The notes beneath the pieces are model-generated. The model saw nothing but the letters and a program-made list of their open reading frames with translations. It made no database searches and was not told the origin of the DNA. 64,000 bases of DNA from Limnochordia bacterium (GTDB taxonomy: Bacteria; Bacillota; Limnochordia; Darwinibacteriales; DTU012): contig SKJB01000083.1 in the NCBI GenBank assembly GCA_007116145.1, positions 1-64,000 of the forward strand, in the 5' to 3' direction. Position 1 is the stretch's first letter, and every line of letters starts with the position of its first letter. Shown here piece by piece: positions 15,114 to 21,702 of this stretch. Position numbers and translations under genes: made by a program.

Positions 15114-15593
15114 ATGCTTTTGCCCAATTTAGTCGGGCTATTATCGGTAATTCTACTGGTTGTAATGATGTTCTTTTTCGTACCTAGAGAAGAGGTCCGA
15201 CACTTGCTGCCTTTTGGCCTCACTTTCGGCTTTGGAACTGCAATAATTTTATTACTACTTATGCAAAACATCTACAACTTTTGGCAGTTTATTCAAACAG
15301 ATTTTCTCTATCTCTTTAACATTCCACTGCTCATCTCAGCGGCTTGGATACCCACAGTTATAATTTTTGCCCATTGGGTCAAAAACGAAGTGTCGTTTAT
15401 GAGGCTGTTGGTTACTATTAGCTTGTTTGCAGGCGGCGCAACACTAGTGCATTATTTCCTGATTGCTAATCAGATGCTTGTCTACGAGAACTGGAGCTTA
15501 GTACTCACATTTACGGTATCGTTTATCATTCATGTTGTGATAACTGGTTATCTGTATATGGTAGGTAGAATAACCAAAATTGGGCTCACCTAG
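15114..15593 (+). CDS. Unknown multipass membrane protein, first gene of the sporulation block
   Basis: A 159-aa protein with about five hydrophobic segments and no recognisable catalytic motif; I do not recognise the family with confidence. ATG with GAGGCG nearby. It lies just after a sigma-G-like promoter and 63 bases before gerA with no terminator between, so it is probably made in the forespore and sits in the inner spore membrane. A role beside the germinant receptor is inference from position only. Confidence 0.7.
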   Translation: MLLPNLVGLLSVILLVVMMFFFVPREEVRHLLPFGLTFGFGTAIILLLLMQNIYNFWQFIQTDFLYLFNIPLLISAAWIPTVIIFAHWVKNEVSFMRLLVTISLFAGGATLVHYFLIANQMLVYENWSLVLTFTVSFIIHVVITGYLYMVGRITKIGLT

Positions 15594-15628
15594 ACCACAC
15601 AATGTCTTTAGATAACTTTAGCATTAAT

Positions 15629-15657
15629 GAATAATTCAGCTTTTTGACCAAATACTA
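15629..15657 (+). promoter_or_regulatory. Second weak sigma-G-like match before gerA
   Basis: GAATA, 17-base spacer, AATACTA. The -10 touches the annotated gerA start, so if real the transcript would begin after that codon. More likely secondary or fortuitous. Confidence 0.25.
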
Positions 15658-17132
15658 TGACTATGAAACTATCTAAATCAATCGAAAAAAACCTCGAAAT
15701 ATTCCAGCAGAAAATTTTCCATGATGACGATGTTATCCGATACAGACGATTTACTCTGGGAAATACGCAAATAAAGTGCGGAATAATCTTTATTGATAGT
15801 ATGATCGATAAAGATTATCTTGGCGAGAACGTTATTTCTCCACTAACGCGCTGTAAATCGGAATCTATTCATTTACGCGAGATCTATCCATCCATTGAAA
15901 ATATCATTGCTGTCGAATCCCTAAGGATATCAAAAGGACTAGAGCAGATGATTGAGGGCATCCTCTACGGCGATGCCCTGTTACTCATTGACGGCACCGA
16001 TTTAGGAATGATATTAAGCGTTAAAGGCTGGGAGTACCGCAGCATTAGTGAGCCCACTTCTGAGAGTGTAGTACGGGGATCTCGAGAAGGATTTACCGAG
16101 TCCATCATCATAAACATCTCGCTACTGCGACGTAAAATCCAGGATTCTCGTCTAAAGTTTAAAATGCAGGAACTAGGCAGACGTACAAAAACGAAGATAG
16201 CTATCTGTTATATCGAAGATCTGGTTTCGCCGCAAATCCTGCAGGAAGTCTTTGAACGGATCAACAAGATTGACATAGATGGCATTTTGGAATCTGGTTA
16301 TATTGAGGAACTAATCAAAGATTCTCCATTAAGTCCTTTTAAAACTGTGGGGCATACAGAACGTCCCGATATCTTAGCAGGCAAAATACTAGAAGGACGA
16401 GTAGGAATTCTCTGTGATGGAACTCCTTTTGTATTAACAGTACCCTTCATCTTTATGGAGGGGTTTCAAAGCAATGAAGACTATTACCGCAACTGGGCTT
16501 TAGCTTCTTTGGACCGGATGCTACGCTATGTCGGTTTTTTTATTACAACAAGCACTCCAGCCATTTATCTATCTCTAATCACCTATCACCAGGAAATGAT
16601 TCCGACACCACTGCTCCTAAGCATCTCTGCCGCGAGAGAAGGAATCCCGTTCCCTACCATTTTCGAACTCATTGTGCTTGGATTAGTTTTTGAAATTCTG
16701 CGCGAGGGAGGAGTCCGTCTTCCTTCGCCAATCGGTCAAGCCCTTAGTATCGTCGGTGCTATTGTTTTAGGTGATGCAGCCGTAACTGCAAATTTTGTGA
16801 GCGCTCCTATGATTATTGTCATTGCTCTAACTGGAATCTCAAGCTTTGTGATCCCGCAATTTTTAGGGGTTGTGATTCTTATCCGCTTAGCCTTCGTTTT
16901 GTTTGCGTCCGTACTAGGACTTTACGGCTTTGTTTTTGCAGTCATTGGGCTATTTATTCACCTGATGTCAATTCGCTCTTTTGGTATTCCCTATATGACA
17001 GAGCTATCCTCATATAAACTCGAAGATGTTAAAGATACAGTGATCCGGGCCCCCTGGTGGTGGATGCAACGCCGGCCAAAACTGATCACAAAAAAAAATA
17101 GACCGAAACGCAAAAGGATTGAAGGCAAATGA
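15657..17132 (+). CDS. gerA: Spore germination receptor subunit A
   Basis: A-subunit of a GerA-family nutrient germinant receptor in the inner spore membrane. A soluble N-terminal region of about 270 residues is followed by a block of membrane helices that includes the conserved SREGIPFPTIFELIVLGLVFEILREGGVRLP and GALVLG-like IVLGDAAV. Length of 491 aa is normal. No clear Shine-Dalgarno site precedes the ATG at 15657 or 15663. Ends four bases into gerC. The nutrient sensed cannot be predicted. Confidence 0.95.
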   Translation: MTMKLSKSIEKNLEIFQQKIFHDDDVIRYRRFTLGNTQIKCGIIFIDSMIDKDYLGENVISPLTRCKSESIHLREIYPSIENIIAVESLRISKGLEQMIEGILYGDALLLIDGTDLGMILSVKGWEYRSISEPTSESVVRGSREGFTESIIINISLLRRKIQDSRLKFKMQELGRRTKTKIAICYIEDLVSPQILQEVFERINKIDIDGILESGYIEELIKDSPLSPFKTVGHTERPDILAGKILEGRVGILCDGTPFVLTVPFIFMEGFQSNEDYYRNWALASLDRMLRYVGFFITTSTPAIYLSLITYHQEMIPTPLLLSISAAREGIPFPTIFELIVLGLVFEILREGGVRLPSPIGQALSIVGAIVLGDAAVTANFVSAPMIIVIALTGISSFVIPQFLGVVILIRLAFVLFASVLGLYGFVFAVIGLFIHLMSIRSFGIPYMTELSSYKLEDVKDTVIRAPWWWMQRRPKLITKKNRPKRKRIEGK

Positions 17133-18268
17133 AGCACTTGATTCTCTTACTCATTGCAGCTCTACTCTTGGCTGGCTGTTGGAATTATCGTGAAATTGAT
17201 AACTTAGCCATTGCGTTGGGGTTAGCCGTTGACAAAGGTGAAGGCGACTCATATATAGTCACAGTTGAAATTATTAACCTCGAGGGAGCTGGGCCAGAGT
17301 CCGAATTTAAACCAACTACTGTCCAAGCACAATCCGATACGATTTTCGGTGCTATTCGCAGGCTCATCACAGTAACTGGCAAAAAACTTTATTGGGCCCA
17401 TGCGAAAGTAGTAATTATCAGCGAAGAAATCGCACGTGAAGGTATCCTACCCATCCTAGACTTTGTGCAGCGCGATGCAGAAATTCGGTCAGATGTGTGG
17501 CTGTTAGTTTCTAAGGAAGAAACGGCTGCTGAAATTTTAGCAAGCACTCCACTCGTTGAATCAAGTATCTCGCAACAACTAAGTCAAATCTTACAACATC
17601 ATGCTCCAGAGCCAAAATCAATTCCTGAAGAATTATGGAATTTCATGCAAAAACTCACAGCTCCAGGTATTGCCCCTGTAATAGCTACAGTTGGACTGGT
17701 AGAGCAAGGCGAAGAGAAGCTTACGCGTATTAAAGGGGTAGCTTTTTTTCGTAGAGATAAAATGGTGGGATGGTTAGATGGAAAGGAGAGCCTAGCTCTG
17801 TCTTACCTACTCAATGAGTCAATCTCAGGACTAATTGTACTACGGTACGAGGAATCGGGTCTTACCGCGCAAATCACTTATGAGGTTGTAGGTAATAAGA
17901 CAGAGTTCCAACCCTTCATTAAAGATGATCAAATAACAATGGGTATCGTAACGAATCTCCAGGTTATTCTCGCAGAGGTAGCCAATCAAAAAGTGGATTT
18001 TAGTCAACCTAGTGTTCGTAGCAAACTAGAGAGCGATTTAGCAGAGCATCTTGAGGAATTGATGAAGCGCACAATTATCAAACTGCAACAATATAACAGT
18101 GATGCGGTAGGATTGGGCAGTGTTTTACGGCGCAGAGACCCAGAAGCGTGGAAACTAGTAGCGGATGATTGGCCTGCAGTTTTTGGCAGCTTGCAAACGG
18201 ATATCCGAGTAAAACCCGTTATTCGCGCAAGTGCCTTGGTCTCAAAACCCATTGAAATGAGGGATTGA
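17129..18268 (+). CDS. gerC: Spore germination receptor lipoprotein subunit C
   Basis: Ger(x)C family lipoprotein subunit of the receptor. The signal peptide ends in the lipobox LLAGC followed by WNYREIDNLAIALGLAVDKG, the family hallmark. Three-domain GerC body with ITVTGKKLYWAHAKVVIIS and a C-terminal helix-rich DVGLGSVLRR-like part. Length of 379 aa is standard. Overlaps gerA by four bases, with the D-type subunit one base after its stop. Lipidation would anchor it to the outer face of the inner spore membrane. Confidence 0.95.
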   Translation: MKHLILLLIAALLLAGCWNYREIDNLAIALGLAVDKGEGDSYIVTVEIINLEGAGPESEFKPTTVQAQSDTIFGAIRRLITVTGKKLYWAHAKVVIISEEIAREGILPILDFVQRDAEIRSDVWLLVSKEETAAEILASTPLVESSISQQLSQILQHHAPEPKSIPEELWNFMQKLTAPGIAPVIATVGLVEQGEEKLTRIKGVAFFRRDKMVGWLDGKESLALSYLLNESISGLIVLRYEESGLTAQITYEVVGNKTEFQPFIKDDQITMGIVTNLQVILAEVANQKVDFSQPSVRSKLESDLAEHLEELMKRTIIKLQQYNSDAVGLGSVLRRRDPEAWKLVADDWPAVFGSLQTDIRVKPVIRASALVSKPIEMRD

Positions 18269-18269
18269 T

Positions 18270-18497
18270 ATGCAGGTGGTCCTCCTCACTACAACTCTAA
18301 TTTTGATAGTCATAGCTGAAATAAAACTTTGGCATCAGAAAGATACACCAAAAATTATCTTCTATTGTATCTTAATGCTTTGTGCTTATGGTTTATCGGT
18401 ATTACAGATGACTGAAACAACCATTTTCAATCCATCCGTACTTATTGAGACCATTATTTCGGCACTACAAAACGATAATAGCGAGGGTCTTAGATGA
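18270..18497 (+). CDS. Small two-helix membrane protein of the ger operon (D-type subunit)
   Basis: 75 aa with two transmembrane helices, lying between gerC and gerB and overlapping gerB by four bases. Small two-helix 'D subunits' are known in some Bacillus germinant-receptor operons and modulate receptor function; this gene fits that size, topology and placement. Sequence conservation is too low for me to prove homology. Confidence 0.75.
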   Translation: MQVVLLTTTLILIVIAEIKLWHQKDTPKIIFYCILMLCAYGLSVLQMTETTIFNPSVLIETIISALQNDNSEGLR

Positions 18498-19582
18498 AAT
18501 TAGAAGTATTATCGGAGCAGCAAGCTATATCTCTTATGGTCCTCTTTATCTCAGGAAGCGCTGTAGTCCTGAGTATTGGAGGACAAGCTGGTGGTGATAT
18601 CTGGTTAGCCGTCATTCTCAGTGGATTACTTGCACTTCCTATTGTGACTGTGTATGCTCGATTACATAGTCTTTATCCTCATTATGATGCTTTTCAGATA
18701 ATTATTGTGATCTTTGGCAACACGTTTGGGCGCTTGATCTGCCTGGTGTATACCTGGTTTGCCTTCCACCTTGGCGCACTTGTGCTACGTAACTTCGGTG
18801 AATTTATTATTACAGTTGGTCTCGAAGAGACACCGCAGTTATTTCCAGTTACCTTGTTCGCTCTTCTCTGTTTGTGGATAGTGAAAGAAGGAATTGAGGT
18901 ACTCGGACGCTGGAGTAATTTTTTCTTTCGCTTTGCTATTATTATCGTACTCATTACCACTGCACTTGCCTTGCCTGAACTGAATATGGATCACTTTCGC
19001 CCCTTTCTATTTAATGGTATAATGCCAGTACTCCAGGGTACTGCCAATGTATTTGCTTTTCCTTTTGCCCAGACTATCGTGCTCTGGCTAGCTTTTTCTG
19101 GCTTTCAAAAGCGCTCATCTCCATATAGGATCTACTGGTTAGGGATACTCATGGGAACTCTCGTAATCTTAATTATAACAACCTTAGTGGTAGCCATCAT
19201 TGGAGTAGAAATATATAAGCACTCCTACTTTCCTGCTTACATTGCCATTGCTCGTTTAAATATCGCAGACTTTGTTCAGCGCTTAGAAATCATTGTTGCT
19301 ATTATGTTTATTATCAGTAGTTTTGTCAAAGTGAGTACTTGCTTATTGGCTACCTGCAAAGGAGTGGCTGCGATCACCAACTTTCACGACTACCGTTTTA
19401 CTGTTACCCCTATTACACTACTTATGATTAGCACCTCGTATTTTCTTTTTGATGACATCATGCAGATGCTATTTTGGGCACAGGATATTTGGCCTATCTA
19501 TGCATTTCCTTTTCAAGTAATTCTCCCTATTATCGTCCTCATTGGTGGAGAGTACAGAGCAAAATCACTAAAGAAGCAGTAA
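18494..19582 (+). CDS. gerB: Spore germination receptor permease-like subunit B
   Basis: B-subunit of the germinant receptor, related to amino-acid/polyamine transporters. Ten or so transmembrane helices over 362 aa, beginning with the typical LSEQQAISLMVLFISGSAVV and including WFAFHLGALVLRNFGEFI. In this family it binds the nutrient. Last gene of the operon; a gap of about 100 bases follows before the caspase-like gene. Confidence 0.94.
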   Translation: MKLEVLSEQQAISLMVLFISGSAVVLSIGGQAGGDIWLAVILSGLLALPIVTVYARLHSLYPHYDAFQIIIVIFGNTFGRLICLVYTWFAFHLGALVLRNFGEFIITVGLEETPQLFPVTLFALLCLWIVKEGIEVLGRWSNFFFRFAIIIVLITTALALPELNMDHFRPFLFNGIMPVLQGTANVFAFPFAQTIVLWLAFSGFQKRSSPYRIYWLGILMGTLVILIITTLVVAIIGVEIYKHSYFPAYIAIARLNIADFVQRLEIIVAIMFIISSFVKVSTCLLATCKGVAAITNFHDYRFTVTPITLLMISTSYFLFDDIMQMLFWAQDIWPIYAFPFQVILPIIVLIGGEYRAKSLKKQ

Positions 19583-19689: not shown

Positions 19690-20853
19690 ATGAAGGTAAA
19701 TTTATTCACTCTAATACTAATTGCATTTGTTACTGCAGGCTGTGCTACGATCGAGATTACTCCCCAACTACCTGGTGGCTTAGTTGGATACGTCTATATC
19801 CAAGAAGGTGTAGGAGCAGCTTCAACTGGTGAATCAGCAATCATTGTTAGCGGTGAAGTAATGAATGATCCAAACTATAAGCCTTTAACGGGAGCAAAGG
19901 CTACGCTATCTGGTTCAAGTCCTGTGTATACGAACAGTTCTGGGAGATTTAGCATTGATGGAATTTCTCCGGGTTGGAAAAGTCTAACTATCGATCATGA
20001 TAATATTCGTCCCGTTCGTCAATCTGTAATCATTCAATCTGGAAAAACTACCTATCTCACCAACCAGAACAGTATAGACGCGGGGATTGGCTGGTATCTG
20101 ATTATTGGAATAGAACGTTATGGACATTTAGCATACCCACAATATTCCTCTATGGGGGCAGACAAAGATGCTACAAGTATCTGGGATGAATTGTTTTTAA
20201 GAAACGATTTAGCCGGTATGGGAAAACTCTTAATCAATAGCGAAGCAACCAAAAAAGAGATCAAGGATTGGATTCAATATGCCAACACACATAGTAAGCC
20301 AAACGATTATCTGGTAGTGTATTACGCTGGGTTGACTCTAGAACACATACGCAAGGATGAAGTCTATTATCCGACTACTGGTGGTCTACATCATATTCTT
20401 CCATATGATGCACAATTAAGTAACAACAGCGATCTAGATCGAACCCTTATCAGCGATGGTGAATTAGAACTCTGGTTAAGTGATTTTAAAGGACAGGATG
20501 TAACAGTTATTCTCGAAGCAAGCTACTCGGGTACCTTTATAGATGGTAATTCTACGTTTCCACTTCTACCATTTGCCTTAAGAAGAGCAGGTTACACCGT
20601 GATTACAGCCACAGATAGTGATACCAAGGCAACTTATGATCCTCATCTAGGAGATTCTGGGCAGAGCGTTTTTACCCATTTCCTTGTCCATGGGCTACAA
20701 ACCATTAATACCGATGATGGTAAAATAACCGCTAACCAACTCTATGTACATGTTAGAGATGAAATGGCTTCCTACTTTGGGACTGCTCCTGACCGACATG
20801 TACCCCAACTTTACGTAGGCCATTCCCGCTCCCCTGTCGTATATCGCTACTAA
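19690..20853 (+). CDS. Caspase-fold (peptidase C14-like) lipoprotein lacking both catalytic residues
   Basis: Predicted surface lipoprotein of 387 aa. The signal peptide ends at AFVTAGC (lipid-modified Cys about residue 18). Residues about 50-120 form a carboxypeptidase-regulatory-like beta domain (TNSSGRFSIDGISPG). From about 130 the caspase/metacaspase p20 fold appears: IGIERYG...GADKDA, DYLVVYYAG, HHILPYDA, and VILEASYSG. Active homologues have YYxGHG and DACxSG; here these read YYAGLT (His to Leu, about 215) and EASYSG (Cys to Ser, about 278). Both catalytic residues are therefore missing and it is a probable pseudo-protease. ATG 19690 is preferred over the upstream TTG. The next gene, 33 bases on, encodes another exported protein. 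Confidence 0.82.
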   Translation: MKVNLFTLILIAFVTAGCATIEITPQLPGGLVGYVYIQEGVGAASTGESAIIVSGEVMNDPNYKPLTGAKATLSGSSPVYTNSSGRFSIDGISPGWKSLTIDHDNIRPVRQSVIIQSGKTTYLTNQNSIDAGIGWYLIIGIERYGHLAYPQYSSMGADKDATSIWDELFLRNDLAGMGKLLINSEATKKEIKDWIQYANTHSKPNDYLVVYYAGLTLEHIRKDEVYYPTTGGLHHILPYDAQLSNNSDLDRTLISDGELELWLSDFKGQDVTVILEASYSGTFIDGNSTFPLLPFALRRAGYTVITATDSDTKATYDPHLGDSGQSVFTHFLVHGLQTINTDDGKITANQLYVHVRDEMASYFGTAPDRHVPQLYVGHSRSPVVYRY

Positions 20854-20886: not shown

Positions 20887-21657
20887 ATGAAAAAATTTGT
20901 TCTATCAGTATTAATCGCTCTATTACTCACATCACCCGTATTAGCCTTTACACCAAAAGAATATGTATCCGATCGAATCATGGCAGTATCTTGGCTAACC
21001 AATGATACAGTCTATGTGGCTATTGCTAATAATACCTTATCAAGAAATACCTATACGATTGAAACCTATGAAGCAAACCGTCGCAATCCTGTAGACCGCC
21101 AGAGTGTTGTGATCCCATCTCGTTCAGTACTCATTGAAGCATTCCCATTGCGCGCAAACCAGCTTCGTCAGGAGTGGCCGATTCAAGAAGTGGTGGTCGC
21201 GGATCGCTACAATTCTGTAACCATCACTGTACAATACGACAAGTATCTAAGCGTTAAGGATTATGTGATGCGCGCCAATACGAACATTAATATTGATGTT
21301 GATTTATTAGCAATTACTAGGAATACAAGTTATGGTCAGTTACTTGTAGACGATGAGTATAGTATCAACAGTGGAGGTCGCGGTCGTATCACGATTGGTG
21401 CATTTGAGGGTGGTTACACCGTTTCCCACGGACGAAATCGGGTGGAATACCGTCCCCCATATATGCAACTAAGTATGCGGGCCCCCTTCATGCAAGGTGT
21501 GGGAATCTTGACCTTTGGGATGATGCACTTAATCGATGGACCTGGCAATAATTTCCGTGAATATATCCAAGGTCCTCAAATCATGGTATATGGTTCTGAT
21601 GTCTGGTTAATTGATAACACCGTCCCCGCTAGGAGCTCTGATCGCGTAACAAAGTAA
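20887..21657 (+). CDS. Exported protein of unknown function
   Basis: 256 aa with a clear cleavable signal peptide (MKKFVLSVLIALLLTSPVLA) after GCAGGAGG. The mature protein looks mostly beta-stranded, with no cysteines, no lipobox and no known motif. It follows the pseudo-caspase gene by 33 bases and ends at a strong terminator, so the two are likely co-transcribed and may work together outside the membrane. I do not recognise the family. Confidence 0.75.
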   Translation: MKKFVLSVLIALLLTSPVLAFTPKEYVSDRIMAVSWLTNDTVYVAIANNTLSRNTYTIETYEANRRNPVDRQSVVIPSRSVLIEAFPLRANQLRQEWPIQEVVVADRYNSVTITVQYDKYLSVKDYVMRANTNINIDVDLLAITRNTSYGQLLVDDEYSINSGGRGRITIGAFEGGYTVSHGRNRVEYRPPYMQLSMRAPFMQGVGILTFGMMHLIDGPGNNFREYIQGPQIMVYGSDVWLIDNTVPARSSDRVTK

Positions 21658-21670
21658 AGAATATCGCGCA

Positions 21671-21702
21671 AAAAGAACGGATCCGCTGAGCCGTTCTTTT
21701 TT
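21671..21702. terminator. Bidirectional terminator between convergent genes
   Basis: AAAAGAACGG, interrupted inner stem, CCGTTCTTTTTT. It serves the caspase-like pair on the plus strand and cysK on the minus strand. Confidence 0.9.

Follow-up and report, generated by a model that had tools for sequence, protein, structure and literature searches.

Pseudo-orthocaspases have a p20 domain homologous to that of the orthocaspases, in which the catalytic dyad is substituted. In the survey by Klemencic et al. (2019, PMC6426788), 858 of 9,994 orthocaspases belong to this class: 90% are from the Alphaproteobacteria and Cyanobacteria, and a few are from the Bacteroidetes, Actinobacteria, Betaproteobacteria, and Chloroflexi. 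They cluster in phototrophs, have been linked to photosynthesis, and keep an acidic pocket (PMC6426788). The word "Firmicutes" is absent from the main text of that survey. The Synechocystis pseudo-orthocaspase, SyOC, is linked in the title of its description to the attenuation of oxidative stress (PMC7889975). EACC1, for which another group of caspases is named, comes up in work on bacterial conflict systems (PMC7159879).

The locus described here lies in a 64,000-nucleotide stretch of DNA from a Limnochordia bacterium, analysed as a whole and hereafter called the window. It comprises two adjacent genes, A and B (Table 1). Protein A is probably (at a rough probability of 0.6) a surface pseudo-orthocaspase that has lost its protease chemistry and now serves as a membrane-anchored binding module for protein B.

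Architecture of the A protein

Table 1. Features of the A-B locus, with positions in the window
Feature	Position	Strand	Basis
Gene A, pseudo-orthocaspase lipoprotein, 387 aa	19690..20853	+	ORF, ATG 19690 to stop 20853
A signal peptide and lipobox VTAGC	19690..19743	+	sequence; Gly-Cys invariance; Cys count
A CarboxypepD_reg (transthyretin/Ig-like) domain, residues 53-123	19846..20058	+	PF13620
A caspase-fold (p20-like) domain, residues 130-387	20077..20850	+	AF2 model and fold search; metacaspase profile match
A Leu215, catalytic His position	20332..20334	+	alignments and profile match; codon TTG, motif YYAGLT
A Ser278, catalytic Cys position	20521..20523	+	alignments and profile match; codon AGC, motif EASYSG
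Gene B, predicted secreted protein, 256 aa	20887..21657	+	directly downstream of A; adjacency across genomes
B signal peptide MKKFVLSVLIALLLTSPVLA	20887..20946	+	sequence reading; pattern repeated in homologues
B C-terminal linker and basic end motif (...RVTK)	21616..21654	+	tail comparison and ORF background
Intrinsic terminator (probable) at the end of the A-B unit	21670..21702	+	stem AAAAAGAACGG/CCGTTCTTTTT, 10-nt loop, T run; by eye

The ATG start of gene A is preceded by a ribosome site, AGGGAAAGGG. (Alignment residue numbers are counted from TTG 19681 and exceed those from the ATG by three, so that Leu218 and Ser281 are Leu215 and Ser278.) The terminator at the other end of the unit is absent from the list made by a terminator scan, in which the loop limit was 8.

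The initial annotation had recognized a lipobox and a carboxypeptidase-regulatory-like domain in A, and both are present. The signal peptide carries the lipobox and Cys of a lipoprotein; lipidation is predicted at Cys18, the sole Cys in the whole protein, and the lipobox Gly-Cys is invariant in all 19 dead homologues that cover the N-terminus. The PF13620 match (E 3.7e-8) is over the family cut-off. The lipobox and Ig-like part also occurs alone, as short lipoproteins (about 130-170 aa) that are widespread in the order (for example G020:C74, G024:C261, and G030:C104, plus over a dozen other places).

The remainder of A resembles caspases at a distance. Pfam C14 gave no match to the window protein, and the NCBIfam model "caspase, EACC1-associated" (NF047832) matches residues 140-363 (TTG-start numbering; E 4.9e-12) at 45.8 bits, against a curated cut-off of 140 that leaves A outside the family. 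Homologues from the same order share 30-40% identity with A, and six of these are over the C14 cut-off. A profile built from dead members only matches metacaspase-4 (1.6e-10) as well as metacaspase-9, yeast metacaspase, and trypanosome MCA2, and the alignment sets their SGHG and Asp-x-Cys columns in register with the degenerate motifs.

The structural comparison with metacaspases proposed in the initial annotation was made with an AF2 model, whose input alignment held the window protein, one bacterial caspase, and six from viral contigs. The model is partly confident: mean pLDDT is 52, rising to 94 in the core, within the first half of the domain. It has the alpha/beta caspase/metacaspase fold (clan CD, C14). 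Its top matches in Foldseek and VIA-align (Z 12-13) are yeast metacaspase (4f6o: Z 13.2, rmsd 2.6, 133 residues), Arabidopsis MCA4 (Z 13.1), and MALT1 (Z about 12), and they cover residues 130-324. Together, the fold matches and the register of the dead-only profile indicate that the positions labelled catalytic in A are the correct ones.

At these positions A has Leu (YYAGLT) and Ser (EASYSG), just as first read from the DNA, in place of the His-Cys dyad of an active orthocaspase (C14 peptidase). Another His/Cys pair in the active site would have spoken against a dead enzyme. Such a relocated pair is rejected: the only Cys is the one predicted to be lipidated, the mature domain has none, and no pair is conserved in the dead clade. 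With its p20 domain homologous to orthocaspases and its substituted dyad, A is a pseudo-orthocaspase, presumably without proteolytic activity.

Loss of the dyad and selection on the dead proteins

A single-sequence search detected homologues of A in 31 of 150 related genomes, and profile searches detected them in the class and phylum. (Viral contigs yielded distant viral caspases only.) The dead set analysed here comprises 21 proteins that cover both motifs, from four families of the window's order. The catalytic Cys is absent from all 21 complete sequences of the order, replaced by Ser (10), Ala (6), Asn (2), Asp, Gly, or Thr. The catalytic His is absent from 19, where Tyr (7), Leu (4), and Arg (3) predominate over Lys, Asn, Val, Ile, and Thr; two proteins, in G003 and G026, keep it. 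Two fragments were also seen: one (G034) has lost the Cys, with Glu and His in the two catalytic places, and the other (G022) keeps the His and stops before the Cys position.

If the Leu/Ser pair itself had been selected, it should be conserved among homologues with the same neighbour. It is found in only 4 of 21, and the residues at both positions drift. Because the replacements vary, it is the loss that is conserved, not the particular pair. Moreover, since loss of the Cys is universal and loss of the His is not, the Cys was probably lost before the His.

Outside the order, the dyad is intact in all 21 proteins examined (families f10, f17, f23, f64, f76, and f127). In a maximum-likelihood tree the dead proteins form one clade (support 98/99) and require a single change. 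By this sequence comparison, the dyad is shown to have been lost once, in the ancestor of one order; only one live-to-dead transition is visible. The initial annotation had allowed that close homologues with intact dyads might betray a recent loss or a sequencing error. The intact ones occur only outside the order, and the Cys is missing from the orthologues of 20 other genomes as well, which excludes a sequencing error.

Are the dead proteins maintained? Within the caspase domain, the dead and intact sets have similar mean column entropies (1.78 and 1.89). Decay of columns that are invariant in the intact set is selective for the active site: the His; the Gly after it; the Cys; the Gly at +3 from the Cys; and the substrate-loop Ser. 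Conversely, eight positions (P241, I257, E263, W265, F269, D288, T306, and M362, TTG-start numbering) are conserved in the dead set only, which points to a function particular to the dead proteins, with the caveat that the dead set is taxonomically narrower. Pairs of dead orthologues have pS of 0.75-0.83 and pN of 0.21-0.33; the synonymous sites are saturated, so no dN/dS ratio is given. Purifying selection on the dead A proteins is well supported by these comparisons.

The proposal of a selected pseudoenzyme outside the membrane is well supported, then, by the single dead clade, purifying selection, the lack of an intact homologue in the order, and the lack of an alternative Cys. Its expectation of a conserved Leu/Ser pair is not borne out.

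Partner protein B and the role of the pair

Searches of Pfam, NCBIfam, and the PDB found no relatives of B, and none were found in viral contigs. The protein is probably mostly beta, judging from its sequence. (An AF2 model of B alone, made with no alignment, had pLDDT 33 and was not used.) In 21 genomes B lies next to a dead A, and in family f10 five loci have it next to an intact A, one of those five A genes being frameshifted. The gap between the genes is usually very short in these loci, and the other neighbours differ between families. The frameshifted f10 gene (L119 1315-2495, in G069:C84) is a second intact-dyad copy of A beside B.

Among 398 genomes drawn across the phylum, B is present in eight, all in families f1 or f10. 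Its overall distribution is confined to the window's order and the sister family f10; intact A genes that are more distantly related lack it. The pairing is older than the catalytic loss, as B stands beside both the dead A and the f10 intact A. The distances of A and B correlate in a mirror-tree comparison (r 0.80), which, made without a control gene, is not counted as evidence.

Families f2 and f5 contain orphan B genes that lack an A beside them, and paralogues of B are found away from A; in some genomes, then, B can function on its own. One paralogue, B2 of family f3, is tandem or dispersed and ends in PPTPxWxWRR or similar.

The C-terminal end of B is distinctive. In the dead clade, a variable Ser/Gly/Pro-rich linker leads to a short motif (RVTK, RVNR, WVTR, LITR, RVAR). 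The ending [VI]-x-[RK] is present in 14 of 20 complete dead-clade tails and R-V-x-Tyr in three more; L104 and L113 lack a basic end. All six f10 B proteins (L115-L119 and L156) end earlier, without the linker and basic tail, and the IVEK ending of L115 is a chance match to the loose motif. In 400 kb of one relative, a related tail pattern ends 2 of 372 ORFs and none of 37 secreted-like proteins; a general secretion tag is rejected on the latter count. The most conserved segment of f10 B, GTARHGLSAPPILVYG, has 13 of 15 columns invariant compared with 33% overall. In the dead clade this segment is altered, and the remainder of f10 B diverges.

Loss of the dyad, in a protein kept under selection beside the same partner, makes it probable that A works by binding rather than cutting. 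The binding or scaffold role put forward in the initial annotation is plausible and is strengthened by the conserved partner gene. In the preferred reading, A would be lipid-anchored outside the cytoplasmic membrane and would bind B there, with the Ig-like domain as a spacer and the dead caspase domain as the binding module. The intact ancestor presumably acted on B, or on something under B's control. The interaction would have been kept after the catalytic loss, and A would now hold, localize, or gate B on the membrane's outer face. Three points weigh against this binding model: conserved adjacency may reflect co-expression without contact; orphan and dispersed B genes exist; and the transition from live to dead is a single one.

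A more specific form of binding is product-mimic docking, in which the cleft of A that once received substrate would take up the linker and basic end of B, and the terminal Arg or Lys would fill the S1 pocket formerly specific for basic residues. Cleavage by orthocaspases follows basic residues, and the acidic S1 pocket persists in pseudo-orthocaspases (PMC6426788). In dead A, the residue two before the Cys position is Asp in 19 and Glu in two of 21 proteins, and the other pocket Asp is present in 16 of 21. The basic tail is common in the dead clade and missing from the secreted-like background and from f10. However, the Ser-Tyr/Trp-Glu substrate-loop motif found in intact members has degraded in the dead clade; in the window A, the conserved Ser beside the His is replaced by Ala and the S1 Asp by Glu; both pocket Asp residues could be structural; and there are exceptions among the tails (the f10 match, the two without a basic end, and the three ending in Tyr). 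Docking of this kind is unlikely. The full historical version is less likely still: intact f10 A would cut B within its most conserved segment (GTAR-HGLSAPP), and in the window's order catalysis would have been lost once, the segment would have changed, and B would have gained a tail that permanently mimics the product by docking in the dead cleft. The altered segment and the gained tail nonetheless suggest, at the level of sequence, that a protease-substrate pair became a receptor-ligand pair.

The upstream neighbour offers another role. A ger-type germinant receptor operon (15114-19582, also given as 15657-19582; Spore_permease and GerAC families) lies directly upstream in the same direction, A begins about 100 nt past its last gene, and the terminator scan (loops of up to 8) found none in between. 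A-B could accordingly belong to the ger operon and help sense or transmit germinants, like CspC of Clostridioides, a pseudoprotease that acts in germination (PMC6636752). However, ger-operon genes stand beside A in no other genome examined, and the upstream neighbours are highly variable (although the two nearest A-bearing species have A at the very start of the contig). CspC, in addition, has a subtilisin fold unrelated to caspases. A germination accessory is improbable.

It is similarly improbable that A is now a non-protease enzyme with a new active site in the old domain. The newly conserved residues of the dead clade include Asp288, Glu263, Trp265, and Met362 (TTG-start numbering), but they equally resemble a change in surface or packing. 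Moreover, the old nucleophile position varies freely and no conserved His/Cys pair has replaced the dyad.

Regulating or decoying an active enzyme is a common role for pseudoproteases, and A could act in this way, as other pseudo-caspases have been proposed to, on an active caspase of its own cell. However, a C14 search of 36 genomes of the order matched dead A genes only, and no second caspase of A's family was found in the window's genome (96.6% complete). In these genomes, therefore, A is not the inactive counterpart of a working C14 caspase, and the regulator or decoy role is very improbable. Finally, gene decay or sequencing error, suggested by the lost catalytic site and by the failure to find A in roughly one third of these 36 genomes (some of them incomplete), is refuted for the clade as a whole by ORFs open across four families, pN far under saturated pS, and retention of the lipobox and partner.

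Comparison with described pseudoproteases

CspC and CspA of Clostridioides (PMC6636752, PMC12880746) resemble the proposed A in being bacterial pseudoproteases that signal by binding. Unlike A, they have the subtilisin fold, are spore-specific, and have no sequence relation to it. The EACC1-associated caspases are the best curated family match for the catalytic domain, far under the cut-off; A, by contrast, is an exported protein, and in the window it is flanked by the ger genes and B.

The closest counterparts are the pseudo-orthocaspases (PMC6426788). Like them, A has p20 without p10, a replaced dyad, and a place as a clade among active relatives. At the two acidic S1 positions, dead A has Asp or Glu in 21 of 21 and Asp in 16 of 21, although its substrate loop is degraded and Glu fills one of the two places in the window protein. 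SyOC (PMC7889975) is likewise a dead orthocaspase kept in a bacterium, from a different lineage. Unlike the known pseudo-orthocaspases, A comes from an apparently spore-forming order of the Bacillota, combines a lipoprotein signal with an Ig-like domain, and is accompanied by a conserved partner that is secreted.

A whole order of another phylum that carries a dead exported caspase, with no active C14 caspase found, does not agree with photosynthesis as the general role. Moreover, since live and dead versions of A adjoin the same partner gene, the two can be compared as before and after, a tractable system for studying the role of a protease that has stopped cutting. Pseudo-orthocaspases as such are already known; the novelty here lies in the lineage that carries one, its architecture as an exported lipoprotein, a loss resolved as a single event, and B as a conserved partner.
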